Shown: positions 21,115 to 54,141 of the stretch, piece after piece
Layout: each line of letters starts with the position of its first letter
How positions within the stretch are numbered: position 1 is the first letter of the stretch
Assembly (NCBI GenBank): GCA_026390015.1
Contig: JAPLGS010000138.1
Span: 1 to 64,000, forward strand
Source of the DNA: Chloroflexota bacterium
GTDB lineage: Bacteria; Chloroflexota; Anaerolineae; Anaerolineales; Villigracilaceae
Length of the DNA: 64,000 nt
Direction of reading: 5' to 3'
Position numbers and translations under genes: made by a program
Notes under the pieces: generated by a model
Told to the model about the DNA's origin: nothing
The model's database searches: none
The model's input: the letters and a program-made list of their open reading frames with translations, nothing else

Positions 21115-21229
21115 TGGCTTTCCTCTCAGGCAATTTTAGCACATACAGGATTAAATCACGAAGACACGGGCGACAGAGAAATTAACTCCGTGACTCCGTG
21201 TCTCTGTGGCTTGGTAAGTAAACATTCTG

Positions 21230-21305
<76 letters not shown>

Positions 21306-21361
21306 TTACGAGGGAAAATTGCCACTCATGTAGAAACTCTCCTGGAAGAGTAAGAGGTGCA

Positions 21362-25008: not shown

Positions 25009-28000
25009 ATGAGTATTTCATCACGGATACTTGTTATAGACGATGATCGTAGTCTCCTAATGGGGGTTTCTGAAATTCTTAAACGTGGAGGTTATGAGGT
25101 TATAACAGCCACCAATGGAACTGATGGAATTCAACTGGCATTGGAGAGCTCTCCAGACCTGATAATTTCAGACATGATGATGCCCCCCCCTGACGGCTCA
25201 GAGGTTTTGCGAATTCTTTCCGAACACAGTTCCACTGTTAACATTCCCTTCATCTTCCTGACTGCCCGAACAGATGAAAAGGTCAAGGTGACCAGCCTGA
25301 AAAATGGGGCTGATGACTACATCACAAAACCGTTTAGCACAGATGAGTTACTCGGGCGGGTAAATTCCATCCTTCGCCGCAAAGAGATTACAGAAACCTT
25401 TGAAGTTCGCAATCAGACTGAATTGCGTAAGGCGGCCGAAGAAAAACTCAGCGAACGTAGGGAGGAAAATGTCACTGAGGTTACTGCAACGAACCCAGAT
25501 GCCCTGCGCCTCATCCATGAATTGCAAGTTCACAAGATCGAGTTGGAGATGCAAAATGAACAACTGATCGAGGCTAAGGCACAGGCGGAAGAGGCGTATC
25601 GTCAATATTCCGACCTGTATGACTTAGCGCCTGTGGGTTACCTGACACTGACGCGGAGTGGCACGATCAGCAAGATCAATCTGGCTGGCGCGACCATACT
25701 GGGGAAGCCACGCAGCCGGCTGATCGATCGGCAGCTGGCGCAATTAATCTCGCACAGATCTCTGGACGCCTTTGAAGTATTCTTTAATAAACTTTACTAT
25801 GGGAGTGGCTATGGGACCTGTGAGCTGAGCTTATTGAATAATGACAATGAATGGTTCTGGGTACAGCTCGAAGCGACCAGCTTCGTAGACGGTCAGGAAT
25901 GCCGCATAATAATGGTGGATATCAACGAGCGCAAGCTGGCCGAAGAGCACAAGCTAGCCGAAGAAATTTTACGGGCAAGTGAAGCGAAATTCCGGAATAT
26001 GTTCGAAAACCACGCCGCAGTGATGCTGCTCATTGAAGCCGCAACGGGACATATTTTGGATGCTAATATTGCGGCGGAAAACTTCTATGGGTATCCCGTA
26101 TCCGCCTTGAGCACGATGAATATGAGCGATATAAACACTTTGACGAAGGAAGAAATTCAAATTGAAATGGATGGCGCGCTGGGCGAGCATAACAACTATT
26201 TCAATTTCCAGCATCGTTTGGCAAACGGAAAAATTCGTGAAGTGGAAGTTCATTCATCACCCCTGACCATGGAGAATAGGACGATCCTCTTTTCCATCAT
26301 CCATGACATTACCGATCGCAAGCAGGCTGAAGAAGCTTTACGTGCGAACGAGCAAAAATATTATCGATCAGAAGCGGACTTAAAGGCAGCTCAAACCATT
26401 GCCAAGATCGGAAGTTGGAGATGGGATCTAAGAACGACTGAAGTGACCTGGTCGGATGAAATGTACCGTCTCTTTGGGGTCGATAAAAATTCATATAGTG
26501 GAAGGCTCGGTGACGTTATTGCAAAGGTTGTCCATCCCGACGACCTGTATATTGTTCTTCCTTCCAATGTTCCGTCCATCGCGGAAAAAAAATCTTTCAG
26601 GTACCGCATCATCATGCCAGATAAAACCATTCGTCATATTTCGGCAATCTCAGGCGAAGTCATTTATGCTGATGATGGCAAACCGATTTATATTTCAGGT
26701 ACCGCTCAGGATGCCACCGAGGCTAAGCTAGCTGAGGAAGCGCTCCACATTCAGCGCTGGCGGCTGGAGAGCATCATCGAGGGTGCTCGCGTCGGTACCT
26801 GGGAATGGAATGTCCAGACTGGAGAAGTCGTCTTTAATAAATTGTGGGCGCAGATGATCGGATACACACTCGAGGAACTGGAGCCTATTAGCATCAAGAC
26901 TTGGGAGAAATTTTGCCACCCCGATGACCTGAACCGATCCGATGAATTGTTGCAGAGGCATTTCGCGGGCGAACTGCCATACTATGACGTTGAAGTCCGT
27001 ATGAAACACAAGGATGGTCACTGGGTTTGGATCCATGACCGCGGTCGCTTCATCACCCGCACTGACGACGGCAAACCTCTATTGATGTTCGGTACCCACA
27101 CTGATATCACTCAGAGCAAGCATGCAGAGTTGCAATTAGAAGAAGCAAAATTACGGGTGGAGAACATCATCGAGGGCGCTCACATTGGCGCCTGGGAATG
27201 GAACGTCCAAACTGGAGAAGCTGTCATCAATGAATTTGAGGCGCAGTTGCTCGGATACACACTCGAGGAGCTGGAGCCTATTAGCATCAACACTTTTGAA
27301 AAATTAATCCACCCCGATGACCTGAACCGATCCGATGAATTGGTGCAAAGGCACTTAGCGGGCGAACTGCCATATTATGACTTTGAATTTCGAATGAAGC
27401 ACAAGGATGGTCACTGGGTTTGGATCCATGGCCGCGGTCGCGTCATCACCCGCACTGACGACGACAAACCACTATTGATGTTCGGTACCCACACTGATAT
27501 CACCCAGCGCAAGCATGCAGAGTTGCAATTAGAAGAAATGGCTATGACCGATTTCCAGACAAAACTGTACAACCGTCGTTATTTTATGCAGCGCAGCGAT
27601 GAAGAGTGTAAACGCGCCAGTAGAAGCCATCAGCCCCTGACGCTCCTGATGCTGGATATTGACCATTTCAAAAAAGTAAATGATACCTATGGCCACGAAG
27701 CCGGGGATCTGGCACTTCAACACGTTGCGGAGATTATGAGATCCAGTCTGCGTGAAATTGACATCCTTGGACGCATGGGCGGCGAGGAATTCGCCGTACT
27801 AATGCCGAATACTACGTTGGAAGATGCAGTCCTATTGTCTGAACGGATACGCTTGTCCATAGCCAAAGCATCTTTTGATAGTTCAGCCCAGGCATTGATC
27901 CTGACCGTTAGTATTGGCGTCGAGATCTTCAATGCTGAGATGTCAGGTTTTGACGGGTTGCTTAGAAATGCAGACGAGGCTTTGTATCGCGCAAAGAACA

Positions 28001-29222: not shown

Positions 29223-30485
29223 TTAACTGAGGTTGTATAGCGCTTTTCGTGTTCGGAATGCGACAAACCTTCTTGTCGCCAATCTGTACTTGGCCTTCTT
29301 TTTTTGATACTTTCCATCAACGCCATAAGACTTGGCAAGTCCATCGAGTTTTTTCTTATCGCATGGCAGGACAATCCAAACCCCATTTTTCTTTTCGACA
29401 AGCCCTTCTTTTTCCATAATTTGAATACTCTTCTTGACTGTGGAATAACCTCTTCCGGTTTCATCACTAATATCCTTCAGTGTCCTCCGTGGTCTTAATA
29501 ATAACGAGCACAATATTTGTGCCGAAGATGGATTTAGAGCCGTCCGACTAAACAAATCATGGTTCAGTATTGGCAAAACCATATTTGCAATTTCGCTGGA
29601 TACCATATTCGCCTCAAAAAATTTGAGATTAATTCCATAATGGTCGCTAAAGGAATTTGTTTTCACATAAAATAAAACACCCATTCTCACTAATTCTTTC
29701 AAGACTTTCCGTGCGGTTTTCTTGCTCATCGATGCCAAAAGCGATATTTCACTGAGAGCGGCTCTGAAGTCATTTATCTGTTCGAGATCTGCTCTACGGA
29801 AGCATGCTATTATGACCTTCAGCAAACTTAATCCACCCTGCCCGGGCCAGCTCATACTCAACGCTGAAATAATGAGTTGGCGAATTAATTCATTTTTGAT
29901 AAATATCCGAAGGTCCTGAGTTTGACTGATGTGTTTGGTTTGAATTATTAATTGCGGAAATATTATTTTTATTTCTTCGTGGTTCACAATTGGAGGATGC
30001 ATACCCTTGCGCTTTATCCAGGAGCAAATATCTCCATCTGGGCTCGAAGATGGGGGAGCAAGAATAATTCCCTGAGTTTGAATTGCATATGTTGATGTTT
30101 GGATACCTTGTGCTGTCCCATCTTCAAGATAAAGCCAAACGTGATAATTTGACCCTTCTGTTGATACCCACTTGTCAAGCCCGTGGGAAGACCTAGAAAA
30201 GTCGGTGTAATCAGCTTTCGAAAAAAAATTGATAATAAATAAGTTGCCTGATTGAGGACCGAGTTCGACACCAACATTAAATTTTTTGTGCTTTGCTATT
30301 TTTACCATATCGGCTGGATGTTGGCTCACAAGATCAAGGAGGTTACCATCCATCCGTTCATATCCACCATAAATTAAGGGGATCGCTTTTATGTTGCAGC
30401 TTAAGAACCTTGCTAATGCATCTTCCCTACTGTCGTATTTCCAAAGTGCCAGTAGTATTTCGTTTTCAGATATTTTACTTTTCAA
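29223..30485 (-). CDS. PrimPol-like replication protein with two winged-helix segments
   Basis: About 420 residues from TTG 30485, chosen because GAGAGG lies 8 bases upstream and the residue order MKSKISENE follows. The N-terminal 200 residues follow the bifunctional primase-polymerase pattern (IPLIYGGYERMDG, NVGVELGPQSGNLFIINF, W-x-STEGSNYHVWLYL), but the expected catalytic DxD is replaced (IINFFS), so activity is doubtful. Two helix-turn-helix segments follow (MSKKTARKVLKELVRMGVL and LKDISDETGRGYSTVKKSI). Probably a replication initiator or regulator of the island; sits 1 base after the upstream gene. Confidence 0.55.
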   Translation of the reverse strand: MKSKISENEILLALWKYDSREDALARFLSCNIKAIPLIYGGYERMDGNLLDLVSQHPADMVKIAKHKKFNVGVELGPQSGNLFIINFFSKADYTDFSRSSHGLDKWVSTEGSNYHVWLYLEDGTAQGIQTSTYAIQTQGIILAPPSSSPDGDICSWIKRKGMHPPIVNHEEIKIIFPQLIIQTKHISQTQDLRIFIKNELIRQLIISALSMSWPGQGGLSLLKVIIACFRRADLEQINDFRAALSEISLLASMSKKTARKVLKELVRMGVLFYVKTNSFSDHYGINLKFFEANMVSSEIANMVLPILNHDLFSRTALNPSSAQILCSLLLRPRRTLKDISDETGRGYSTVKKSIQIMEKEGLVEKKNGVWIVLPCDKKKLDGLAKSYGVDGKYQKKKAKYRLATRRFVAFRTRKALYNLS

Positions 30486-30955: not shown

Positions 30956-31676
30956 ATACGTCAATAGGTAATCGTTCTGCCATTTTTTTTCAGATTGGCA
31001 GTAGTAGTAATTACTGTCATACTCTATAGCTCTTCTTGAGCGTGGAAGCAGTGGAAAACAAGCCAACCTCCGCCCGCGATAGCGGGCTGCTCTTCGTAGT
31101 ACGTTCTCCAGTACTAGCGTGTAATCCGAACAAGGTCAATAGAACGATCCTTTTTTATAGAGGATTTTCTACTACGAATACAAGCCTCGCTATAGCCACG
31201 GGATGGAGGTAATTCAAGATCAAGGGTAGAAAACCACAATAATGGTTCGGAAATCGGGGAAATTGGTTCACAGAAACGAAAACTCCATCGTGCAGACCCT
31301 ACACACTACTCCTCTCGGCTAAATTCCCGCTCCTGAGAAGACCCCTAAGGATGCCTGACGGCATATGGTTCATTGAACCTCCCTTCCAGAGAGGCTATTT
31401 GGAAAGAATTTAACATCCTCTGGACTAACTCCTCTCGGTAACATCCATATGCTATATTCTCGGAGTATTCTAATAAATCTACGAAATCCTTCGTTGTCTA
31501 TAAAGAGACTTGGAGTAGGTCAATTTCAAGAACAGGCCGAGAGGTGAAAGCACTTTCGTCAGAACCTTGCCGTCTCAGTAAGGCACACTGTGAATGATGG
31601 AACTGCTCAGTTATATCCTTTACTCAAGCACAGTCCCATATATGGTAATGTTGGAGAAGGAGAAATGAGTGGCGAG

Positions 31677-31694
31677 GTCTCTGACATCAGAAAC
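31677..31694. repeat. 18-bp island dyad, copy (17/18)
   Basis: GTCTCTGACATCAGAAAC; only position 10 deviates from the consensus. Confidence 0.7.
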
Positions 31695-32037
31695 TATCGT
31701 TTGCTAACGACACCAGTGTAACTACGATGGAGAGGGGATATAAAAGAAGCGGCCACGTTCAAAATACTGAGCGCCAAAATAGCAAATATTTTTTCAAAAC
31801 CGACTACCCATATCTCACCCTTCTCGGCAGAATTGCTCTACCTCCATCGTAGTCGGTAGGAAAAAATCAAAGGAAGCCAGGATCACCTCAGATAACGGAT
31901 ACCTGTGAACACGAAGATTGCCGGCTGCCGAAGCGGGATGGAGTTTGTCAGATCATAATTTGAAGCAAATCATGGATGGCGATTGACAACAATGATTACG
32001 AGTTCCTGTCCGATATGGAACAGTTGGTTTCCGCGCC

Positions 32038-32066
32038 TTGACGCTAGAACAAATGTTCTGTAGAAT
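32038..32066 (+). promoter_or_regulatory. Promoter with LexA-like box in its spacer
   Basis: TTGACG, 17-base spacer, TAGAAT, 9 bases before the LuxR-type ATG at 32076. The spacer contains AGAACAAATGTTCT (32046-32059), that is GAAC-N4-GTTC, the core of Gram-positive-type LexA boxes. A repressor here would block RNA polymerase directly. An autoregulatory site of the LuxR-type protein is the alternative. Confidence 0.6.
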
Positions 32067-32075
32067 AGTCTCATC

Positions 32076-32501
32076 ATGTCTATCTGGAAACGCTTGCTTA
32101 GCCTGATAGACCGACGTCCTAACGCCCGCCCTCGGACCTTCCAGATCAGTGATAGTGTCCACACTACATTGGTCACACTCGCACAACAACGAGGCCGCCC
32201 TGAAGATGATTTTGCCACTGAACTCCTGGCCGCTGGTCTCAAACAACTCTACTCCACGGACGAGCTTTACCTGAAATGGGAAACTCTGACGGCACGCGAG
32301 AGGGAGGTGGCTGCGTTGATTTGCCTGGGGTATACCAATCGTCAAGCAGCAGCTAAGATGAATGTCGTGCCGCAAACAGTGAAATTCCACACACATCACA
32401 TTTACGAGAAATATGGAATAAAAAGCCGATCCCAATTACAGCAACTGCTCTCCGACTGGGATTGGAGTGAATGGAAGGATTACTGGAGGGACAAGGGGTA
32501 G
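32076..32501 (+). CDS. LuxR-type HTH transcription regulator
   Basis: 141 residues. The C-terminal half is a clear LuxR/GerE domain (LTAREREVAALICLGYTNRQ, then AAKMNVVPQTVKFHTHHI and YEKYGIKSRSQL). The N-terminal 65 residues are basic and do not look like a receiver or ligand domain. The -10 lies only 9 bases before the ATG, so the mRNA is leaderless or nearly so. It stands directly before the RecA-fold/PolB2-like operon, separated by a terminator hairpin, and may control it. Confidence 0.8.
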   Translation: MSIWKRLLSLIDRRPNARPRTFQISDSVHTTLVTLAQQRGRPEDDFATELLAAGLKQLYSTDELYLKWETLTAREREVAALICLGYTNRQAAAKMNVVPQTVKFHTHHIYEKYGIKSRSQLQQLLSDWDWSEWKDYWRDKG

Positions 32502-32570
32502 GCAGCGTGCGTACCTATACCGCTAAATGTGCATCCCTTCTAAAACCTAGCCGTATCCTAGACCTGTTAC

Positions 32571-32595
32571 CTCACCATTGGTGAGTTTTCTTTTT
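32571..32595 (+). terminator. Terminator or attenuator between LuxR gene and polymerase operon
   Basis: CTCACC-att-GGTGAG followed by TTTTCTTTTT. It ends 25 bases before the ATG at 32621, so the downstream operon either has its own weak promoter (TATCTT at about 32609) or depends on read-through. Confidence 0.7.
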
Positions 32596-32620
32596 AAGAA
32601 AACACCTGTATCTTGTTGAC

Positions 32621-33145
32621 ATGAACATACTTCCCATCTTACACACCGGCAAGTTGATCCTTATCACCTCATCGCATGAGACACGCGAACAGATCACCGT
32701 CCTCACGGCAGAACTGGCATTGCGCGGCGCGGTGACTATTCTCGATGGAGGTAACCGCTTCGCAGCGTATCAAACGATCCGCATGCTGCGAAGGAGAACG
32801 CACAACATTGAAGAAGCGGCCAACCGTATTTTCGTGCGGCGGGCGTTCACCTGTTACCAGATGCTGACGTTGTTGGAGAACTCCCCGTCCCTTCAGCAGC
32901 CCTACATCATCCTGGATATGTTCGCAACCTTCTATGATGAAAATGTCCAACTAAAAGAAGCCGATAGGCTTTTGGATCGTTGCCTGGTTCAGCTTGATCG
33001 ACTGCGGTTGACGGGTCCGGTGGTCATCACGATGAAGCCGCATCCCGATCGAGTATTTCTTTTTGAGCGTCTTCTTGCAAGGGCTGATCATATTTTTGAA
33101 CTCGAAATTCCATATCCCGTAATCTCTCAGATGGCTCTTTTCTAA
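32621..33145 (+). CDS. RecA-fold protein without Walker A (ImuA-like), mutasome-type partner
   Basis: 174 residues. The layout of RecA/RadA-derived accessory proteins is visible: a first strand GKLILITSSHETREQ where the P-loop should be but without GKT/S, a GAVTILDGGNRFAAYQ second strand, RRAFTCYQMLTLLEN, a YIILDMFATF Walker-B-like strand, and VVITMKPHPDRVFLF. Bacterial ImuA and the ATPase of archaeal PolB2 operons have the same role of loading or restraining an error-prone polymerase. Stop and next start overlap (TAATG). Family assignment is by pattern, not by alignment. Confidence 0.6.
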   Translation: MNILPILHTGKLILITSSHETREQITVLTAELALRGAVTILDGGNRFAAYQTIRMLRRRTHNIEEAANRIFVRRAFTCYQMLTLLENSPSLQQPYIILDMFATFYDENVQLKEADRLLDRCLVQLDRLRLTGPVVITMKPHPDRVFLFERLLARADHIFELEIPYPVISQMALF

Positions 33146-33408
33146 TGGGACGCACACTTCCTTCCATCACGCAGGAATTTCTACAAGAAGAAGCATCCTT
33201 CGCCAGGTTTCGGCGCGCCCTGCGCAGGAGCGATCAGATCGTGTTGGATGATCTATTTGCATTGGCACGCCAGCATCTTGCCGCCACTGTATATGCTTCC
33301 CACGCGCTGCCATTTGAGACGCTCCTGCTTTGTATGCTGCTTGAGGAGCACAAGGAAGTGATGAAGTTGAAACAACATATGGCGGCAAGCCGCATTGGCA
33401 ATGAGTAA
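33145..33408 (+). CDS. Small middle gene of the polymerase operon
   Basis: 87 residues, helical and rich in Arg/Leu (FARFRRALRRSDQIVLDDLF). Starts within the stop of the RecA-fold gene and overlaps the polymerase start by 8 bases, so all three proteins are translationally coupled and probably made in a fixed ratio. No family recognised; a bridging subunit is the obvious guess. Confidence 0.65.
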   Translation: MGRTLPSITQEFLQEEASFARFRRALRRSDQIVLDDLFALARQHLAATVYASHALPFETLLLCMLLEEHKEVMKLKQHMAASRIGNE

Positions 33409-35608
33409 TGAGCTTCACGGATGGTTACTGGACATCCTGCCAAACGAGCAAGGCTTGACGATATGGATACTGGGAGAAGATGGGAAACGCCACGCGCTGT
33501 CCCATGACTTTCCGATCGCCTTTTATGCAGCAGGGCCGGCAGAACAATTGCGGAGGCTTTGGAAGTGGCTGCAACAGCAACCTGAAAATCCAAAACTATC
33601 CCGTGAAGAGAGACGCGATCTTTTTGCTGGAAGTATTCCTGTCCTGGCTGTGGAACTGACTTATCCATCAGATTTAACTCCACTCTTCAATCGGACATCC
33701 CAGGAATTCCCAGATCTCATCTATTACAACGCCGACATCCCGATATCCTTGCGATACATTGCGCGGTATGGAGTATTTCCACTGGCCGACTGCGAGATCA
33801 AGATCGATCCGTCAGGACACGTTACAGATATTCGCTCCACCCAATCTCCGTGGGAAATTGACCTGCCACTACCGCCACTGACCATTCTCGGCCTCGAGCC
33901 TGAATGTGATCCGTTCCATGCCGCGCCAACCAAAGTATTTATCCAGACGCCAAAGGCTCATTTCTCACTAGACCTGGAACCTGCCCGCGCATTCATGATT
34001 GGATTACGAGCAATCTTTATTCGCCATGATCCTGACCTTCTGCTCACGGCATGGGGTGATACCTGGCTGTTACCAAAACTCCTTCAGATGTCCAAGGAGA
34101 CCGGAATTGACCTGCCCCTCAACCGCGATCCAGATCAGTCCATCAAGCACCGGGAAGCGCGGACATACTACGCTTATGGACAAGTCATCCATCGAGGTAA
34201 GCAGGTTCTTCTGGCGGGCCGCTGGCACATCGACATCCACAATGCCGTGATGTATCACGACTACGGATTGGAAGGGGTTTGGGAATTGGCGCGGGTGACC
34301 GGACTGCCTGTGCAGACCGTGGCGCGGGTATCGCCAGGGACAGGCATATCCTCCATGCAGATCGTCACAGCGCTCAAGGAAGGAGTGTTGGTTCCCTGGC
34401 ACAAGCAGCAAGCCGAACATACCAAATCGATCATGGACTTGATCCACGCAGATATGGGCGGGCTGGTCTTTCAACCGACCATCGGCCTGCACAAAGATGT
34501 GGCTGAGATCGATTTCATTTCGATGTATCCAAGCGTCATGGCGCGTTTCAATATTTCACCTGAGACGATCCTGCCCGGCATACGCGACCAGAACACCGAT
34601 CTGCCGGCAACATCAACCGAGCAGGGTCTTATTCCCAAGACACTGGAGCCATTGCTCAGGAAACGGATCGCGATCAAGATGCAGTTACTCACCATGTCCA
34701 AATGGGATATGCGCTACAAGAGTTACAAGGCTCGATCAGCAGCTCACAAATGGTTGCTTGTGACCTGCTTCGGTTATCTCGGATATAAGAATGCGCGCTT
34801 TGGAAAGATCGAGGCGCATGAGGCTGTCACGGCCTACGGGAGGGAGGCGCTGCTGAGAGCCAAGGAAGCGGCTGAAGATATGGGATTTACTGTCCTGCAC
34901 ATGTACGTGGATGGATTGTGGGTTCAGAAAAAAGGATCAAACAAGGTACAAGATCTCCAACCATTGCTGGATGAAATACTAAATCGCACCGGCCTGCCAA
35001 TTGCGCTGGATGGCATCTACCGCTGGATCTCTTTCCTGCCATCTCGGCTAAACAAAAATGTGCCTGTGGCAAATCGTTATTTTGGCGTGTTTCAAAGCGG
35101 CGAAGTCAAGTGTCGCGGCATTGAACTCAGGCGGCACGATACGCCCAAGTTCATTTCTGAAATTCAAAATGAAGTGTTGGAAATTCTGGCTCGATCCCCT
35201 GACGTTGAACATATCTTTGAATACCTGCCAAAGATCCAATCCCTGATCGATGGCAAACTTTATGATCTGCGACATCAGCGTATCCCACTTGAAAAGCTGA
35301 TCGTGCGCCAGACACTCAGCCGGCCTGTGAACGAGTATCGCGTTCCCTCTCCAGCGGCCACAGCCGCCAAACAACTGGAAGAGGTCGGGAAGTTCCTAAG
35401 GCCAGGACAAACCGTGATGTTTATTTATATACTTGGCGTGCCAGGTGTATACGCATGGGACTTGGAACAAACCCTTGATCCCAAAACAATCGATGTCAAC
35501 ATTTACAAAAAGCTGCTGGACCGAGCCATGGAGACAGTGATGCTGCCCTTTGTGTCAATTCAAGCCCAACCATTTTTGCCATTGTTAGTGTCTGGCGCCG
35601 GAGACTGA
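33401..35608 (+). CDS. B-family DNA polymerase, PolB2-like, altered catalytic motif
   Basis: About 735 residues. Palm motif A is DFISMYPSVMARFN (near 370), motif B is KWLLVTCFGYLGYKNARFG (near 450), and motif C, normally Y-G-D-T-D, reads MYVDGLWV (near 502), so the second metal-binding aspartate is missing. The exonuclease region is also degenerate (LGLEPECDP instead of DIE, YHDYGLEGVWELA retained). Archaeal PolB2/Dpo2 polymerases show the same kind of change and are known to be damage-induced and mutagenic. Last 6 codons lie inside a copy of the island dyad. Confidence 0.85.
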   Translation: MSNELHGWLLDILPNEQGLTIWILGEDGKRHALSHDFPIAFYAAGPAEQLRRLWKWLQQQPENPKLSREERRDLFAGSIPVLAVELTYPSDLTPLFNRTSQEFPDLIYYNADIPISLRYIARYGVFPLADCEIKIDPSGHVTDIRSTQSPWEIDLPLPPLTILGLEPECDPFHAAPTKVFIQTPKAHFSLDLEPARAFMIGLRAIFIRHDPDLLLTAWGDTWLLPKLLQMSKETGIDLPLNRDPDQSIKHREARTYYAYGQVIHRGKQVLLAGRWHIDIHNAVMYHDYGLEGVWELARVTGLPVQTVARVSPGTGISSMQIVTALKEGVLVPWHKQQAEHTKSIMDLIHADMGGLVFQPTIGLHKDVAEIDFISMYPSVMARFNISPETILPGIRDQNTDLPATSTEQGLIPKTLEPLLRKRIAIKMQLLTMSKWDMRYKSYKARSAAHKWLLVTCFGYLGYKNARFGKIEAHEAVTAYGREALLRAKEAAEDMGFTVLHMYVDGLWVQKKGSNKVQDLQPLLDEILNRTGLPIALDGIYRWISFLPSRLNKNVPVANRYFGVFQSGEVKCRGIELRRHDTPKFISEIQNEVLEILARSPDVEHIFEYLPKIQSLIDGKLYDLRHQRIPLEKLIVRQTLSRPVNEYRVPSPAATAAKQLEEVGKFLRPGQTVMFIYILGVPGVYAWDLEQTLDPKTIDVNIYKKLLDRAMETVMLPFVSIQAQPFLPLLVSGAGD
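35588..35605. repeat. 18-bp island dyad, copy (17/18), inside polymerase C-terminus
   Basis: GTGTCTGGCGCCGGAGAC encodes the residues VSGAGD just before the stop. Located between convergent genes. Confidence 0.65.
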
Positions 35609-35665
35609 CGAATTAGTTCTCCTTGCAATATCAACCAAGTCAGGTACCGACAGGGTTGATACTCA

Positions 35666-36271
35666 TTACGAAGAGCTATTTGAATTTACACGTATTTGGC
35701 TTACCAGACGTTCCAACTCCTCTAGTAATGGCCCATGCACGCCTGCCGTTTTGAATGCGCCAACAGCACTTTCGTAATACCAAATCTGGTCTTCCCTGCC
35801 GGCATTAAAACGCTTCCAGAGATCCTCGCCCAAACGTTGATGGTCGCTATAGATCGCCCGCGCATTATCAACCTTATCCGCCAGTGTGACGCGCAGCAGT
35901 TCAGGTTTGGATGTACGGATATGAGCAAGATAGTTTTCCTTGCGCTCACGCCAGAGTGGCTTGACGCCACCCCTATACTCAGCGGGAGTATCAGTGGATA
36001 ACTCAACGATCTTGAGTACCTTTTCCCCGAACAATTGGCCTATCTCTTCCCGGCTGGTTTCATCGGGTTTATCTTCAAGCGCATCGTGCAGTAAGGCTGC
36101 GATCGCCTCATCTTCGTCCCCTCCATCCTGTTGGGCCAAGGCGCAAACTTCCAGCAAATGCGCCATATAGGGCACACTACTCGCTTTTCTTGCATCGCGG
36201 CCATGGAGCTTGAAAGTAAATTGAAGCGCTTGATATAAACGTTCGGTGATCTGATCAGCTTTATCTGACAT
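35666..36271 (-). CDS. HD-domain phosphohydrolase (SpoT/Mesh1-like)
   Basis: 201 residues. The HD pattern of alarmone hydrolases is visible: YMAHLLEVCALA, then LLHDALEDKPDE with the HD pair and ED, and LADKVDNAR as the last metal/nucleotide motif. No synthetase, TGS or ACT part, so it is a stand-alone single-domain enzyme that could hydrolyse (p)ppGpp or another nucleotide. On an island such enzymes may act in defence or counter-defence; that is inference. Ends 58 bases from the convergent polymerase gene. Confidence 0.8.
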   Translation of the reverse strand: MSDKADQITERLYQALQFTFKLHGRDARKASSVPYMAHLLEVCALAQQDGGDEDEAIAALLHDALEDKPDETSREEIGQLFGEKVLKIVELSTDTPAEYRGGVKPLWRERKENYLAHIRTSKPELLRVTLADKVDNARAIYSDHQRLGEDLWKRFNAGREDQIWYYESAVGAFKTAGVHGPLLEELERLVSQIRVNSNSSS

Positions 36272-36289
36272 AAGTAACCTTCCTTTTAT

Positions 36290-36605
36290 TTACCTTGAGA
36301 TTGAAAGTCGAATGGGCTTTAATTTGTATTGAACCCCGGGGATCTTCGCCAAAATTGCAGCGGTATAGACTGGATTGCGCGGAGTGAATTCACTTTCCAG
36401 TTCGTCCAGCGTGAGCCGGCCAGTAACTTTGAGATGACGGTAGGCATTCTCCACACAATGGGCATTCCTTCCCGGTAGATTTAGGTATGATGATCACAGT
36501 GCTTTCCGTAAAAGCAATGATCTCAAATGGGTTGTGACGATCCAGGGTACGCAAGACCAGTCCCTTCATATTCTTGATCTCATTCCAGACTTGCTCAGTA
36601 TCCAT
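36290..36605 (-). pseudogene. Unknown gene with a frameshift
   Basis: ATG 36605 encodes MDTEQVWNEIKNMKGLVLRT and on to IIIPKSTGKE. At about 36466-36471 the frame slips, and the other frame continues naturally as NAHCVENAYRHLKVTG, LTLDELESEF and VQYKLKPIRLSISR to a stop at 36292. Removing one G from AAGGAAT restores an ORF of about 104 codons. The second part looks like a small winged-helix. The 18-bp dyad lies 13 bases upstream of the start. Deletion/insertion in vivo and base-calling error cannot be told apart. Confidence 0.6.
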
Positions 36606-45441: not shown

Positions 45442-46587
45442 TCACAACCCTTCCACCCCAACCTCCCCGCTGACCAAACGCGGCAACAGCAGGTCGCGCG
45501 TCCGCCGCAGGTGGCGATTAACTTTCATCAATAAGTCTTGTTGAGCAAGTATTGGTTGAATTTTTTCAGCATATTGATTTGCTAACTTTACAGGCGGCAA
45601 TGCAATATCTTTATCAACAAGGTCGTTCCAATGTCTTTTGTAATCTTTAGTCTCGACTAATCCATTTACCAAACTGAACACATAATGAATTGGGTATCCT
45701 TTTGTTGACGTAAAGGGAACAACATTTGGTCCAATGGAAAAAGGTCTAACTAATAATTGCATTTTGCAAGTGTGATCCCCGAATATCGCGATTGGGTTTT
45801 CAGGTGTGGCATCAAAGTCAGGCGCATTGTTGTGAAAGCCCAGAAATTCTGCACGAGATTGGTCAATAACAATCACTTCACCTTTTTCTGCTACATCATC
45901 TTGTTCGTAGACTGTTCCTTTCGGTAATCGTTCGATAACACTTTTTACTCTAACCATCTCCCACCCTCTTGGCAGGGACTTAGCATCCACGTTCCCAAAC
46001 CACTCGCGATACACGGACTGCGCCATGGCTTCCAGCACACGGATACGTCGCGCGTTGACTTCGATCAGGTCATCGTAGGCGGAGAGCACGTCCGCGATTT
46101 TGCGCTGGATGGGAAGAGGGGGAATATGAACTTCAAATTCAGGAAAATTGATGATGGGAAGTCGATCAACAGTCGCACCAGAAATCTTCCATTTAGAAAC
46201 AGTCTTCCGCCATTCTTCTCCAAAGAAATAATAATAAAGAAATCTAGTTTCGACTGCTTCTGGATTTGTTCTTATTAATGCCAAACGCCGACCTAAACAA
46301 CCACGAAATCCTTCAGGAATAATTGCGTATCGGTTTAAGGTCGCTTCATATGAAAAAACAATATCGCCAGGTTTTGGTTCAGTTCGTTTAATCCATTTTG
46401 GAAAATCTTCTTCTGCAATATGCCGAATATCGGAAAAATCGAGATGACCATCTTCTGTGATGTTTTTTATACCAAGGTAAATAGGGCCGCTATCTGCTTC
46501 TTTCGGAGTAGCATGGGGGCCATCCCAAAAGCCAGAATACAATTCTTTTATCGGTACTTTTGTCCAGTTTTGATGAGACATCTTCAT
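45442..46587 (-). CDS. hsdS: Type I restriction specificity subunit
   Basis: 381 residues with the expected duplicated layout: target recognition domain 1 (about 1-150), conserved helix 1 (IPPLPIQRKIADVLSAYDDL and RRIRVLEAMAQSVYREWFG), recognition domain 2 (about 205-330), conserved helix 2 (LANQYAEKIQPILAQQDLL... RTRDLLLPRLVSG). It fixes the bipartite DNA target of the modification and restriction complexes. Start overlaps the hsdM stop by four bases (ATGA). Confidence 0.93.
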   Translation of the reverse strand: MKMSHQNWTKVPIKELYSGFWDGPHATPKEADSGPIYLGIKNITEDGHLDFSDIRHIAEEDFPKWIKRTEPKPGDIVFSYEATLNRYAIIPEGFRGCLGRRLALIRTNPEAVETRFLYYYFFGEEWRKTVSKWKISGATVDRLPIINFPEFEVHIPPLPIQRKIADVLSAYDDLIEVNARRIRVLEAMAQSVYREWFGNVDAKSLPRGWEMVRVKSVIERLPKGTVYEQDDVAEKGEVIVIDQSRAEFLGFHNNAPDFDATPENPIAIFGDHTCKMQLLVRPFSIGPNVVPFTSTKGYPIHYVFSLVNGLVETKDYKRHWNDLVDKDIALPPVKLANQYAEKIQPILAQQDLLMKVNRHLRRTRDLLLPRLVSGEVGVEGL

Positions 46588-48214
46588 TCTTTCAAGAGAT
46601 CAGTAACATTCACGGCAATACGTTCTTCCAACTCATGCGCCTGCACATTCAAGGCTTCGAGTTCTTCGTTGAGTTCTTCGAGTTGCACGGCGAATTCCAC
46701 ATCTGAGCCGTTGTCCTTCTCTGTCACGCCCACGTACCGTCCAGGGTTCAGGCTGTAGCCCTGCGCGATGATCTCGTCGCTGGTGGCTACTTTGCATAGT
46801 CCTGCCACGTCGGCATAGGTGCGGGTTTTCATCGCAGAGTGGAGAATGTCAATTTGAGCAGGAGCAAGCTGGGGGTAGTCTGAAGAGTTGAAGTTAAAAC
46901 CGTTCAACTCCTCGCCGCGATACAGTCTCGTCAGAGCGGCGATCAATCCGATTTGCACTTCCGAAAATTCACGATGCGCGCGGTCAACCTGCTTATAAAT
47001 ATTCCGTGCATCGATAAACAAAACAGTATCCTTCGATCTTATGCCTTTTTCCTTCGTGCTCTTTGTGACCTTCGTGGTTAAATCTTTTTTCGCATTATCA
47101 AGGAACCACAACGTACACGGCAAAGTCACGTATAAAAGAAATTACTGCTGATGGCGATCATCACATCCACCACGCCCGCCTCGATCAACTCACGACGAAT
47201 ATCCTGCTCCGACTGGCGCGCATCGCTGGCGGAATTCGCCATCACGAAACCCGCGCGACCGCGCGCATTGAGACTGCTGTAAAACAACTGGATCCAAAGA
47301 TAATTGGCGTTATCGTTACGCGGCATGCCGAACGGAAAACGCACCTTATCATCCTTGAGCTTTTCCTTATCCACCGCGCTCACATTGAACGGCGGGTTCG
47401 CCATCACAAAATCGAACCTGCCCGCCGCCTTGTGCGGGTCATCGTAATACGAATTGCCCATCACCACATCGCCTTCCAGGCCGTGGATGGCAAGGTTCAT
47501 GCGGCACATGCGCACCGTATCCTCCACCTTCTCCATGCCGAAAATGCTCAACTCGCGCTGCGGCTCCTTCTTGCGTCTCTCCAAAAATCCCGCGCTCTGC
47601 ACGAACATCCCGCCGCCCCCGCAAGCAGGATCATACAACAGCCCATGGAACGGCTCGATCACCTCCGCGATCAAATTGACCAGCGAAGTGGGCGTATAAA
47701 ACTCGCCGCCCTTCTGACCCTCCGTCATCGAAAACTTGCCCAGAAAATACTCGTAGATCTTCCCGAACGCATCGCCCTCAATATCCAGCGGGATGGAATT
47801 GAACAACTTGAGCAGTTCCACCAAAACGGAATTGCCGACCCGTTGATAGATCTTCGGCAGGACGTCTTTCAGCGCCTCATTCTCCGCCTCGATCTGTCTC
47901 ATCGCCTCATTCACGTGCCTACCCGTATCCTCTCCCTCCGCCAACTGCAACAGATACGAAAAGCGAGCCTGCTCTGGCAGCCACAACGCCCCCGCCGCCT
48001 GAAAATTCAACTTGCCGATCTTGCTCCGTGCCCCTTCATTCTTCTGCGCCAGCAACTCCCGCTCCGTCGCCACGAACTTCGCTTCCACATACCTCAGGAA
48101 CAACAACCCCAGCACCGGGCGCGAAAACTCACGCGGAGCCAATCCGCTATTCGCCCATAACTGGTCCGCTGCACCCCAAAGCCTATTCTCAATTTCAGTG
48201 ATGTTCGTGGTCAT
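46584..48214 (-). pseudogene. hsdM: Type I methyltransferase subunit, broken by a 1-base frameshift
   Basis: From the start [13 protein letters not shown] (ATG near 48214, GGAG upstream) the protein shows the N-terminal HsdM bundle, the SAM site ([10 protein letters not shown]) and the catalytic NPPF. At 47126-47129 the frame ends after SSNFFYT, and the rest continues one frame over as [31 protein letters not shown]. Inserting one G (ACG-GTG) restores one ORF of about 543 codons. The second half could alternatively restart at the GTG that overlaps the stop. A TTKVTKSTKE-type repeat insertion lies between LDNAKKD and KDTVLFID. Confidence 0.85.
47046..47083. repeat. TTKxTKxTKE-type interspersed repeat inside hsdM
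   Basis: On the minus strand the DNA reads as AACCACGAAGGTCACAAAG and GAGCACGAAGG pieces, encoding LTTKVTKSTKEK. HsdM homologues normally have no such stretch between LWF-x-D and the VLFIDAR block. Similar 'accacgaaggcacgaag' repeats occur in many environmental bacterial genomes. Confidence 0.65.
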
Positions 48215-48281
48215 GTAATTGTTGTCTCCAATCCCTGCATTATATGTCATTGATGTATTTGATGATGAGCAATACCAGTAC

Positions 48282-48374
48282 TCAATACTTATACTGCGAA
48301 GCATCCATCTTGATGCGCAATTCGTCACATGACTGCCAGAGGGAAGAGTTGAGTTCAGATTTTTTGATGGGCAT
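48282..48374 (-). pseudogene. N-terminal stub of a second, unrelated-subfamily hsdM
   Basis: ATG 48374 (AGGA upstream) encodes [20 protein letters not shown] and then [10 protein letters not shown] before a stop at 48284. This is the highly recognisable start of the other common HsdM subfamily ([29 protein letters not shown]). The gene is cut right after DASQYK, and 68 bases later the present hsdM of a different subfamily begins. It is the scar of an earlier type I system replaced by the current one. Confidence 0.85.
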
Positions 48375-53058: not shown

Positions 53059-53970
53059 TTATCGGTGGCGAAGATTGTCCACAGGGGAATGAGCCCTGTG
53101 TTCACGGATCAGATCCTCATCCATCAACTGGGCGTAGTGCTGCACCATATCCAGGCTTGAATGACCAAGTATGGCCTGTAGGTGAAGAACATCCATATTG
53201 CCTCTCAATGATAGGATAACGAATGTGCGCCTCATGGCGTGTGGGGAGAACGGAATACCAGTCTTTTTGGAAAGCCTCGTGAATACAAGACGGAAGCCCG
53301 AGCCGGTAAAACGTGCTCCTTCTCTTGATTGAAATAAGGGGGCGTTTTCTGATGTGTTTGTAAGCGTTCTGCGATAGGAGAGTAATATGCGCCGCGTCAT
53401 AGCTCCAACGACGGACGATCTCGGCTTACCACCCTTTCCGCGTTTCACAGTTACAAGTCCGCTGCTCATATCCACATCGCCCCAATTCAGGGCAACAGCT
53501 TCGGCACGTCGTAAACCGCTGTCTGCTAATAATAAAATCATAGCCTTTTCACGTGGAGTGGAACACGCTTTAAAAACTGTTTCCAACTCTTCCGCAGACA
53601 AACAGGGAAGGCGTTTCTTTTCCACTTTTGGCATGGAGAAAGTCACAGGCGTATCTATATATTTCTCGTTGTGCCAGAAGCGTAATAAAGTTTTTATGTC
53701 TCTTGCAATGTCATGGACAGTATTGTCTGATTTTTCATGGCTGATCTGCAAGGCAATATATTCACGGACATGTCTTACAGAAACATGGAGTGGTGAGTTT
53801 ATTCCCTGGTTTTCGAGCCAGCTAATGAATTTCCCCGAAGTGTATTTGTAGAATTCAAGTGTTGCAGGCGAACATCGTGATGCCTGCCTGCTCAGGATGA
53901 AGTCATAATATGCCTCCTGTAAAGTAAGGGAGGCAAGCGCTTTAAAATGATCAACATTTTTTCCAGACAT
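53059..53970 (-). CDS. int: Tyrosine integrase of the island
   Basis: About 303 residues from ATG 53970 (MSGKNVDHF); the frame runs upstream into the att repeat, which cannot be coding. An N-terminal SAM-like arm (about 20-115) precedes the catalytic domain: R in DSGLRRAEAVAL, HAMRR box, LGHSSLDMVQHY with the nucleophilic tyrosine. XerC/D-like in length. It lies 70 bases from the right att repeat, reading into the island, as expected for the enzyme that inserts and excises it at tRNA-Pro. Confidence 0.93.
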   Translation of the reverse strand: MSGKNVDHFKALASLTLQEAYYDFILSRQASRCSPATLEFYKYTSGKFISWLENQGINSPLHVSVRHVREYIALQISHEKSDNTVHDIARDIKTLLRFWHNEKYIDTPVTFSMPKVEKKRLPCLSAEELETVFKACSTPREKAMILLLADSGLRRAEAVALNWGDVDMSSGLVTVKRGKGGKPRSSVVGAMTRRILLSYRRTLTNTSENAPLFQSREGARFTGSGFRLVFTRLSKKTGIPFSPHAMRRTFVILSLRGNMDVLHLQAILGHSSLDMVQHYAQLMDEDLIREHRAHSPVDNLRHR

Positions 53971-53976
53971 AAAAAC

Positions 53977-54014
53977 ACCACCATATTCGCCGAGGATTTG
54001 ACGAATATGGTGGT
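53977..54014 (-). promoter_or_regulatory. Hairpin covering the integrase ribosome site
   Basis: Perfect 13-bp inverted repeat (53977-53989 with 54002-54014) and 12-base loop, 7 bases before the int ATG. In the mRNA the GGTGGT next to the start is locked in the stem. It may also be an arm-type integrase binding site in DNA. Confidence 0.65.
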
Positions 54015-54039
54015 ACTGTCTACATATGGGTGGCCTGAT

Positions 54040-54102
54040 ATTCGAACCTCCGACCTCTTGCTCCCAAAGCAAGCGCGCTAGCCGGACTGCGCCACGCCCC
54101 GA
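54040..54102. repeat. Right attachment repeat (5' part of tRNA-Pro)
   Basis: 63 bp identical to 21243-21305. It lacks the last 13 bases of the tRNA (the 3' acceptor strand), so it is not a functional tRNA. Confidence 0.9.
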
Positions 54103-54141
54103 ATATTTACTTTTGCAGCTCACACGCGCTATCTCCGTCTT

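Follow-up and report, generated by a model that had tools for sequence, protein, structure and literature searches.

A gene cluster of a Chloroflexota bacterium was analysed in a window of 64,000 nucleotides, which is the whole stretch of DNA considered here (contig JAPLGS010000138.1, positions 1 to 64,000). The cluster consisted of a gene for a small GerE/LuxR-type regulator (the GerE gene) and three genes downstream of it, which encode iRadA, PPB2 and a PolB2-type B-family DNA polymerase (PolB2). In a preliminary description of the window, these genes had been interpreted as a possible damage-inducible mutasome on a mobile island. The proteins of the cassette, the promoters of the GerE gene and of iRadA, and their recurrence in related genomes were evaluated, and the coordinates of the features are collected in Table 1.

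The iRadA, PPB2 and PolB2 proteins

The three genes were located on the same strand and overlapped by 1 nucleotide (iRadA and PPB2) and 14 nucleotides (PPB2 and PolB2), in line with the overlapping arrangement described earlier. Pfam and PDB searches with the sequence of the 174-residue protein returned nothing useful, and the NCBIfam RadA match was weak (E value of 0.015). These searches were uninformative; hence, an aligned structure model was needed. The AlphaFold2 model of the window iRadA had a predicted local distance difference test (pLDDT) value of 90.7, and a Foldseek match to RadA was obtained (E 7e-8). When the model was compared with RAD51, the Z score was 17.6 and 159 residues were aligned from RAD51 residue 108 onward, with a root-mean-square deviation of 2.2. 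The Walker A motif was found in 0 of 46 iRadA sequences. Judging from the model, iRadA is a RadA-fold partner without the ATPase site or the N-terminal domain, and the RecA-fold protein lacking Walker A that had been proposed was thus recovered. The C-terminus of the window iRadA, ISQMALF, fits the beta-clamp-binding motif, and a simple clamp-like pattern was present within the last 16 residues of 22 of the 46 iRadA proteins. PPB2 carried GRT at positions 2-4 in 45 of 46 sequences (MGRT in the window).

Motif C of PolB2 was HMYVDGLW, which contains the YVDGLW noted previously. The DTD of Deep Vent polymerase was aligned with YVD, so that the first Asp was lost and the second kept; YVDG was present in 49/49 PolB2 sequences. 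The protein aligned with archaeal B-family enzymes over the palm, and in the exonuclease region FDIET was aligned with TDIRS in a stretch scoring only 22.8 bits. The best NCBIfam match was PRK05761.1-2 (NF004416), with 425.6 bits and an E value of 3e-127, below the curated cut-off of 516 bits. This model is the nearest one to PolB2, yet the protein is not a formal member of it.

The recurrence of the cassette was examined in a discovery set of 52 PolB2 loci, which came from a scan of genome contigs; the row of the window itself (L001) was left out of the counts. A search of the phylum gave 19 new loci, and 18 of them formed the held-out set after the removal of L175, which is identical to L034. 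The order iRadA-PPB2-PolB2 was found in 46/52 discovery loci and in 19/19 further loci. Of the six misses, four are explained by contigs that are cut close to PolB2; in L023, PPB2 could not be detected, and L005 is an orphan PolB2. The distribution of PolB2 was patchy, with 11 of 199 genomes of the class and 24 of 400 genomes of the phylum carrying it (own genome included). Two PolB2 cassettes occurred in one metagenome bin (L002 and L003), with polymerases 98% and 87% identical to that of the window, and at G067:C2:87162-89447 (L072) a single open frame contained the PolB2 match in two parts, which points to an insert.

The segment 32621-35608 was confirmed, at the level of sequence comparison, as the bacterial PolB2 mutasome iRadA-PPB2-PolB2, which has already been published (PMC11791011). 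By the same comparisons, the earlier interpretation as a damage-inducible mutasome is supported, because the polymerase resembled PolB2 rather than the phage-type active B-family enzymes, the 174-residue protein had a RecA-type fold in the model and the gene order was conserved elsewhere.

The closest phage relatives of PolB2 were four Leptospira phage records with 31% identity; tblastn found no phage relatives of PPB2 and one weak match for iRadA (E 0.05). Leptospira phage KF114879 (L155:3195-6451) has genes resembling those of iRadA and PPB2 ahead of a PolB2-like gene, both with the annotation hypothetical, and a GAAC-type LexA box was absent from the first 4.3 kilobases (kb) of that stretch. 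Seven PolB2 matches were found on viral contigs, including two close relatives (L148 and L149) with no GerE gene and no perfect GAAC-N4-GTTC box within the stretch read. PolB2 relatives were also present on 123 plasmid records, 72 of which cover at least 80% of the query, and the best of them were from haloarchaea.

Promoters of the GerE gene and of iRadA

A related GerE gene was located directly before iRadA, on the same strand, in 34 of the 52 PolB2 loci and in the window. L006 likewise has a GerE gene, and in L048 the gene is divergently oriented. The encoded protein has a C-terminal tryptophan motif (LxxWDFSxW-like), which was present in 35/35 proteins. The AlphaFold2 model of the window protein had a pLDDT value of 90.2, and its helix-turn-helix resembled those of NarL and StyR; against the NarL-DNA structure, the Z score was 11.4, with 65 aligned residues and a root-mean-square deviation of 1.4. 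No Pfam match of any kind was obtained for the N-terminal 65 residues at E values up to 1, and neither a REC nor an autoinducer-binding sensor domain was thus found. When 199 genomes of the class were searched with a profile, all five GerE matches with E below 1e-40 adjoined PolB2, although copies may be missed in this search, in which at most 20 candidates per genome were scored. Among the 11 class genomes with PolB2, G130 was set aside since its contig stops within PolB2, and a GerE-domain gene was located upstream in 10/10 of the others (own genome included). In G184, G155, G039, G085 and G171, the upstream gene matched the family over the GerE domain only, and three of these proteins, which were read by eye, had an N-terminal hydrophobic stretch. 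In the distant PolB2 operons L074, L075 and L076, the usual N-terminal helices of the GerE protein are replaced by a hydrophobic, membrane-like stretch.

The promoter of the GerE gene in the window is of the sigma-70 type and has a GAAC-N4-GTTC palindrome inside its spacer (Table 1), at the place where the preliminary description had noted such a box. This layout recurs in relatives by eye, and 11 of the 26 non-redundant loci have TTGAC shortly ahead of the box. The non-redundant set was defined by an identity of the GerE (luxR) proteins below 80%, for which L002, L004, L015, L016, L017, L018, L032, L033 and L052 were removed from the 35 loci. Within 120 bp before the GerE start, the box was exact in 29/35 discovery loci and had no more than one mismatch in 35/35, as well as in 26/26 non-redundant loci. 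When 256 palindromic words were compared at this position, the runner-up occurred in 1 locus, compared with 29 for GAAC-N4-GTTC, and the exact box was found in only 1 of 33 far-upstream control stretches. Moreover, 11 of the 12 held-out loci with a linked GerE gene had the box with at most one mismatch (8 exact). The same box was located 20 nucleotides upstream of the lexA frame and 32 nucleotides upstream of uvrB in the host genome, and GAAC-N4-GTTC is the LexA motif of Bacillus and other Gram-positives (PMC3323433). Hence, the GerE-gene promoter contains a conserved copy of the host LexA box, which is most likely bound by LexA. The significance of the box derives from its conserved position across loci, because box statistics for the window or the genome alone give no support. 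The window contained 1 box compared with 1.00 expected, which is unremarkable, and within 31600-36300 neither promoter-like matches (4, compared with 4.9 expected from shuffles) nor terminator-like matches (2, compared with 4.4) were in excess.

The promoter of iRadA had a different arrangement. A dyad centred at -43 was found in place of the -35 element, and the -10 element was located six bases before the ATG; hence, a transcript starting from it would be leaderless. Class II activators bind at about -42, and the dyad sits where they bind. The gap between the GerE gene and iRadA ranged from 65 to 298 nucleotides across loci. Among the 26 non-redundant loci, T at -12 (24/26), A at -11 (25/26) and T at -7 (25/26) were conserved, and the -10 keeps a TATNNT-like form; T was found at -35 in 24/26, with C-rich positions from -49 to -45 and G-rich positions at -40 and -38. 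The mean pairing of the dyad centred at -43 was 0.494, compared with 0.252 for the background and a maximum of 0.404 in 300 shuffles. A promoter matrix was scored by leave-one-out, and the start codon was allowed to shift for real and background starts alike. With this matrix, 20 of the 26 promoters scored higher than all 5337 background starts, and 25 were above the 99th percentile, whereas 0/6 iRadA promoters with a direct LexA box passed. When the start was fixed, 21/26 exceeded the 99th percentile of 20246 ATG positions. For the held-out promoters with a linked GerE gene, 7/12 were above the background maximum and 10/12 above the 99th percentile. A search of the host genome for the dyad-promoter arrangement of the window type returned iRadA as the single match and no further targets (control 0). 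A second, degenerate LexA-like palindrome was observed in the iRadA promoter spacer of L027, L028, L031, L032, L033 and L039, with its centre at approximately -24 to -27.5; in the clade around L031, the degenerate box was placed at -27.5 by eye.

Control of iRadA with and without the GerE gene

A whole-genome search for the GerE family was used to divide the loci that lack a linked GerE gene, and LexA boxes were counted from -90 to -1 of iRadA. L007, L008, L012, L021, L022, L025 and L041 had too little upstream sequence for the presence of the GerE gene to be judged; L005 entered no promoter count, and L006 and L048 were outside the 41 GerE-carrying genomes. All 11 genomes that lack the GerE gene had a LexA box at iRadA, compared with 6 of the 41 that carry the gene in linked or unlinked form (P 2e-7; held-out genomes alone, P 0.0065), and the chance rate in random stretches was 138/5200. 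At iRadA of Ornatilinea apprima P3M-1 (L037), the LexA-like box differs at one position. TTGAC was found upstream of iRadA in 8/11 genomes without the GerE gene, compared with 1/41 with it. The held-out set included 12 of 18 loci with a linked GerE gene, and 5 of the 6 others carried the LexA box at iRadA; none of these five promoters was above the background maximum of the dyad matrix. The sixth, L190, had a dyad promoter (score 16.0) and no box at iRadA, and its genome contained an unlinked full-length GerE gene (E 6e-51) with a one-mismatch box in the promoter. The other five genomes gave no GerE match or partial matches only. L036 similarly had an unlinked GerE gene with a LexA-type box, and its iRadA kept the dyad (score 24.1). 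The dyad was thus kept in two of three genomes with an unlinked GerE gene (L036 and L190; not L042). These comparisons indicate that a direct LexA box at iRadA and the GerE gene are nearly mutually exclusive. According to the PolB2 tree, the two control states changed approximately 7 times (bootstrap 5-7), at least 3 changes being forced by well-supported branches; this tree includes the relay rows L178 and L179, which are mis-extracted fragments (145 and 182 residues) with false long branches.

On this evidence, it is considered probable, with good confidence, that the locus is a bacterial PolB2 translesion mutasome operon under a two-step late SOS relay, carried by a mobile element integrated at tRNA-Pro. 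LexA would occupy the spacer of the GerE-gene promoter and repress the gene. DNA damage would remove LexA, and the small GerE protein would then be made. This protein may bind the dyad at -43 of iRadA, thereby replacing the -35 element, and may recruit RNA polymerase as a class II activator, giving a leaderless mRNA for iRadA, PPB2 and PolB2. These three proteins would form a complex that continues DNA synthesis past lesions on the beta clamp. The additional transcriptional step could provide a delay, holding back an error-prone enzyme until damage persists. As the relay is exchanged for direct LexA control between lineages, the output should have the same sign in both cases, which favours an activating role of GerE. 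The regulator, which had been listed earlier as a LuxR component of the cassette, was indeed present; however, the evidence would make it an intermediate step of induction rather than a bystander. The relay was combined with a LexA box at iRadA in L177, L178 and L179; such an addition, also in the L031 clade, would create a feed-forward loop.

Further GerE copies were found beside TIR genes. In G027 (L073:3084-4009), a TIR-domain gene (Pfam TIR_2, E 2e-25) with a promoter score of 24.3 lies behind a second GerE copy with a perfect box. In G527 (L195), a second GerE copy with a LexA box was followed by a TIR-like gene with a dyad promoter; this reading was made by eye. It is possible that these genes encode a damage-triggered TIR effector. 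On balance, it seems likely that LexA-controlled GerE activators with a C-terminal W-D-F-S-x-W motif form a second SOS tier in Anaerolineae. Acting in cis or in trans, each would fire a leaderless dyad promoter, which mostly belongs to the PolB2 mutasome but in two genomes to a TIR-domain gene. Lineages would have repeatedly swapped the relay for direct LexA control, and some would combine both as a feed-forward loop.

Several observations weigh against the two-step relay. The palindrome was not enriched genome-wide (41 sites, compared with 88 for the reversed control), and recA of the host genome had the box with one mismatch only. The held-out locus L188 had no LexA box ahead of its GerE gene. 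The score of the window's own iRadA promoter was only moderate (11.6), and promoter misses occurred in L038 of the discovery set, in L042, L006 and G155 outside it, and in the held-out L191 and L192. Furthermore, six GerE-carrying loci also had a LexA-like box at iRadA, and the direct-LexA promoter of L186 (1.6) was above the 99th percentile of the background. L042 had an unlinked GerE gene with a perfect box, yet its iRadA had neither the dyad nor a LexA box. The genomes scored as lacking the GerE gene are drafts. The orphan PolB2 of L005 (1-8121) had no detectable iRadA, PPB2 or GerE gene in 6 kb upstream. Finally, the window dyad precedes a T-run and also scores as an intrinsic terminator-like hairpin.

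The last observation bears on the main rival, in which the GerE gene is the first gene of one LexA-controlled transcript, read-through accounts for the expression of the mutasome, and the dyad acts as a terminator or attenuator. The same strand and the gap of 119 nucleotides in the window are in its favour, and a damage regulon under terminator-plus-antiterminator control is known from AlpA of Pseudomonas (PMC12796719). However, the dyad holds one register to the -10 and the ATG in diverged loci, for which a terminator has no need. It also stays in place where the GerE gene is unlinked (L036 and L190), and a LexA box is found at iRadA where the GerE gene is absent. A plain operon of this kind is therefore regarded as unlikely.

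A separate objection concerns the enzyme, as the PolB2 complex may have a structural or regulatory role only in bacteria, without mutagenic polymerase activity. PolB2 has been described as active despite the loss of the Asp (PMC11791011), and archaeal Dpo2 was responsible for targeted mutagenesis (PMC7390963), both of which argue against this view. The replacement of the first catalytic Asp (YVDG in 49/49 sequences) is consistent with it, as is the finding of no experiment on bacterial PolB2 in the literature searched. The loss of activity was considered quite unlikely, and error-prone synthesis by PolB2 is the predicted function in the relay.

GerE proteins can repress, and the dyad overlaps the -35 region; GerE might thus be a repressor of iRadA. 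A promoter without a -35 element should nevertheless be weak unaided. Moreover, GerE-less lineages with a LexA box at iRadA should be damage-induced, so that a repressor would invert the output, and this role is very improbable. In a further view, which is likewise very improbable, an alternative sigma factor would use the dyad as its -35, and the adjacent GerE gene would have nothing to do with the expression of iRadA. TTGAC is rare in the iRadA promoters of GerE carriers and the -10 is kept, but a sigma site need not be palindromic, the -10 is TATNNT-like, and dyad promoters accompany the GerE gene, linked and mostly also unlinked, as well as its second copies beside TIR genes.

The mobile island, related systems and meaning

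The location of the cassette on a mobile island, which had been suggested previously, was borne out by the flanks. The right-flank search in the genus matched 10/10 relatives searched, and regions from eight of them were read. Empty sites were found in 5/8 same-genus regions (L141, L144, L145, L146 and L147), where the left flank of the window was joined directly to the right flank at tRNA-Pro. L136 and L143 had other sequence at this site, including a related integrase in L143, and L142 was uninformative. Because of the tRNA-Pro repeat, the integrase and the empty sites in relatives, the 32.8-kb segment with the cassette is identified by these comparisons as a mobile element integrated at tRNA-Pro. 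The island also contained a type I restriction system, in which the HsdM-like gene was broken up into an open frame at 46584-47129 and an overlapping one at 47126-48328. A 300-nucleotide tandem duplication with 87% identity (26761-27060 and 27154-27453) was observed inside a gene for a sensor-like protein of 1026 residues. On the island, the gene at 29223-30485 encodes a protein of 420 residues with winged-helix matches and an N-terminus without a family match, and is possibly a replication gene.

Table 1. Coordinates of the features discussed in the window
Feature	Position	Strand	Remarks
Left attachment repeat within tRNA-Pro	21243..21308		tRNA gene 21229-21304, - strand
Sigma-70-type promoter of the GerE gene, TTGACG-17-TAGAAT	32038..32066	+	consensus scan
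LexA box GAACAAATGTTC	32047..32058		inside spacer of GerE-gene promoter
Small GerE/LuxR-type regulator, 141 residues, proposed SOS relay activator	32076..32501	+	Pfam GerE E 4e-14
Dyad CTCACC-ATT-GGTGAG, proposed activator site	32571..32585		centre -43 from iRadA start
-10 element TATCTT, proposed leaderless start	32609..32614	+	6 nucleotides before iRadA ATG
iRadA, 174 residues	32621..33145	+	RadA/Rad51 fold in model, no Walker A
PPB2, 87 residues	33145..33408	+	begins MGRT
PolB2-type B-family DNA polymerase, 737 residues	33395..35608	+	TTG start; motif C YVD
Tyrosine recombinase (phage integrase family)	53059..54123	-	
Right attachment repeat, 66 nucleotides	54040..54105		98% identical to left repeat

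Several known systems are comparable with the proposed relay. ImuA-ImuB-DnaE2 is an SOS mutasome with a RecA-fold partner, and the parallel drawn with it in the preliminary description held in this respect. It is an analogue only; its polymerases are of the C and Y families, and neither a Y-family ImuB nor a C-family DnaE2 was detected in the window cassette by Pfam and NCBIfam scans, in which a B-family polymerase was the only one. The delay of Escherichia coli Pol V is post-translational and its polymerase belongs to the Y family, whereas the delay in the window's system is proposed to be transcriptional. Dpo2 of Sulfolobus islandicus differs in being archaeal and is not known to be under LexA. 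Pol V (UmuD'2C-RecA) is similar as an SOS-controlled multi-subunit mutasome with a RecA-family partner (PMC11791011), and Dpo2 is similar as a damage-inducible PolB2 polymerase (PMC7390963).

In PMC11791011, the bacterial PolB2 mutasome was modelled, and iRadA-PPB2-PolB2 was the only bacterial gene order reported; MGRT, an enrichment of lexA nearby and clamp motifs in either iRadA or PolB2 were also described. The occurrence of lexA in some bacterial PolB2 operons was given in PMC4104785. The window cassette agrees with that mutasome in its three proteins, their order, MGRT, the inactivated RadA, the lost first Asp and the C-terminal clamp-type motif of iRadA; the additions are the GerE gene with its LexA-box promoter and the dyad promoter of iRadA. 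The PrtR-PrtN and AlpR-AlpA systems of Pseudomonas aeruginosa share the logic of a LexA-like repressor, a positive regulator and a delayed regulon (PMC12796719, PMC9578287). In contrast, their targets are pyocin and lysis genes, their repressors are not LexA itself, and PrtN and AlpA are not called LuxR/GerE in the available text. DdiA of Myxococcus xanthus is a second regulator that activates, directly or indirectly, the error-prone polymerase gene dnaE2, but it is of the XRE family and independent of LexA (PMC12288472). The terms LuxR, GerE and promoter do not occur in the available main text of PMC11791011, and no report of a LuxR/GerE regulator linked to PolB2 was found in the literature searched, which did not extend to the supplements of that paper, where such a regulator may be listed. 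The cassette and the relay logic were already known, and the proposed GerE-based control of a PolB2 mutasome appears to be new.

Error-prone polymerases must stay off until accurate repair has failed. If the proposed relay is correct, bacteria with an acquired archaeal-type mutasome have placed the polymerase one transcriptional step further away from LexA, and the relay and mutasome would be carried as one unit on mobile DNA, at least in the window. The timing of mutagenesis would then become a testable promoter question, and the bacterial PolB2 systems, which have been little studied, would gain a candidate regulator in GerE. Furthermore, a TIR-domain protein could be wired to the same late-damage signal.

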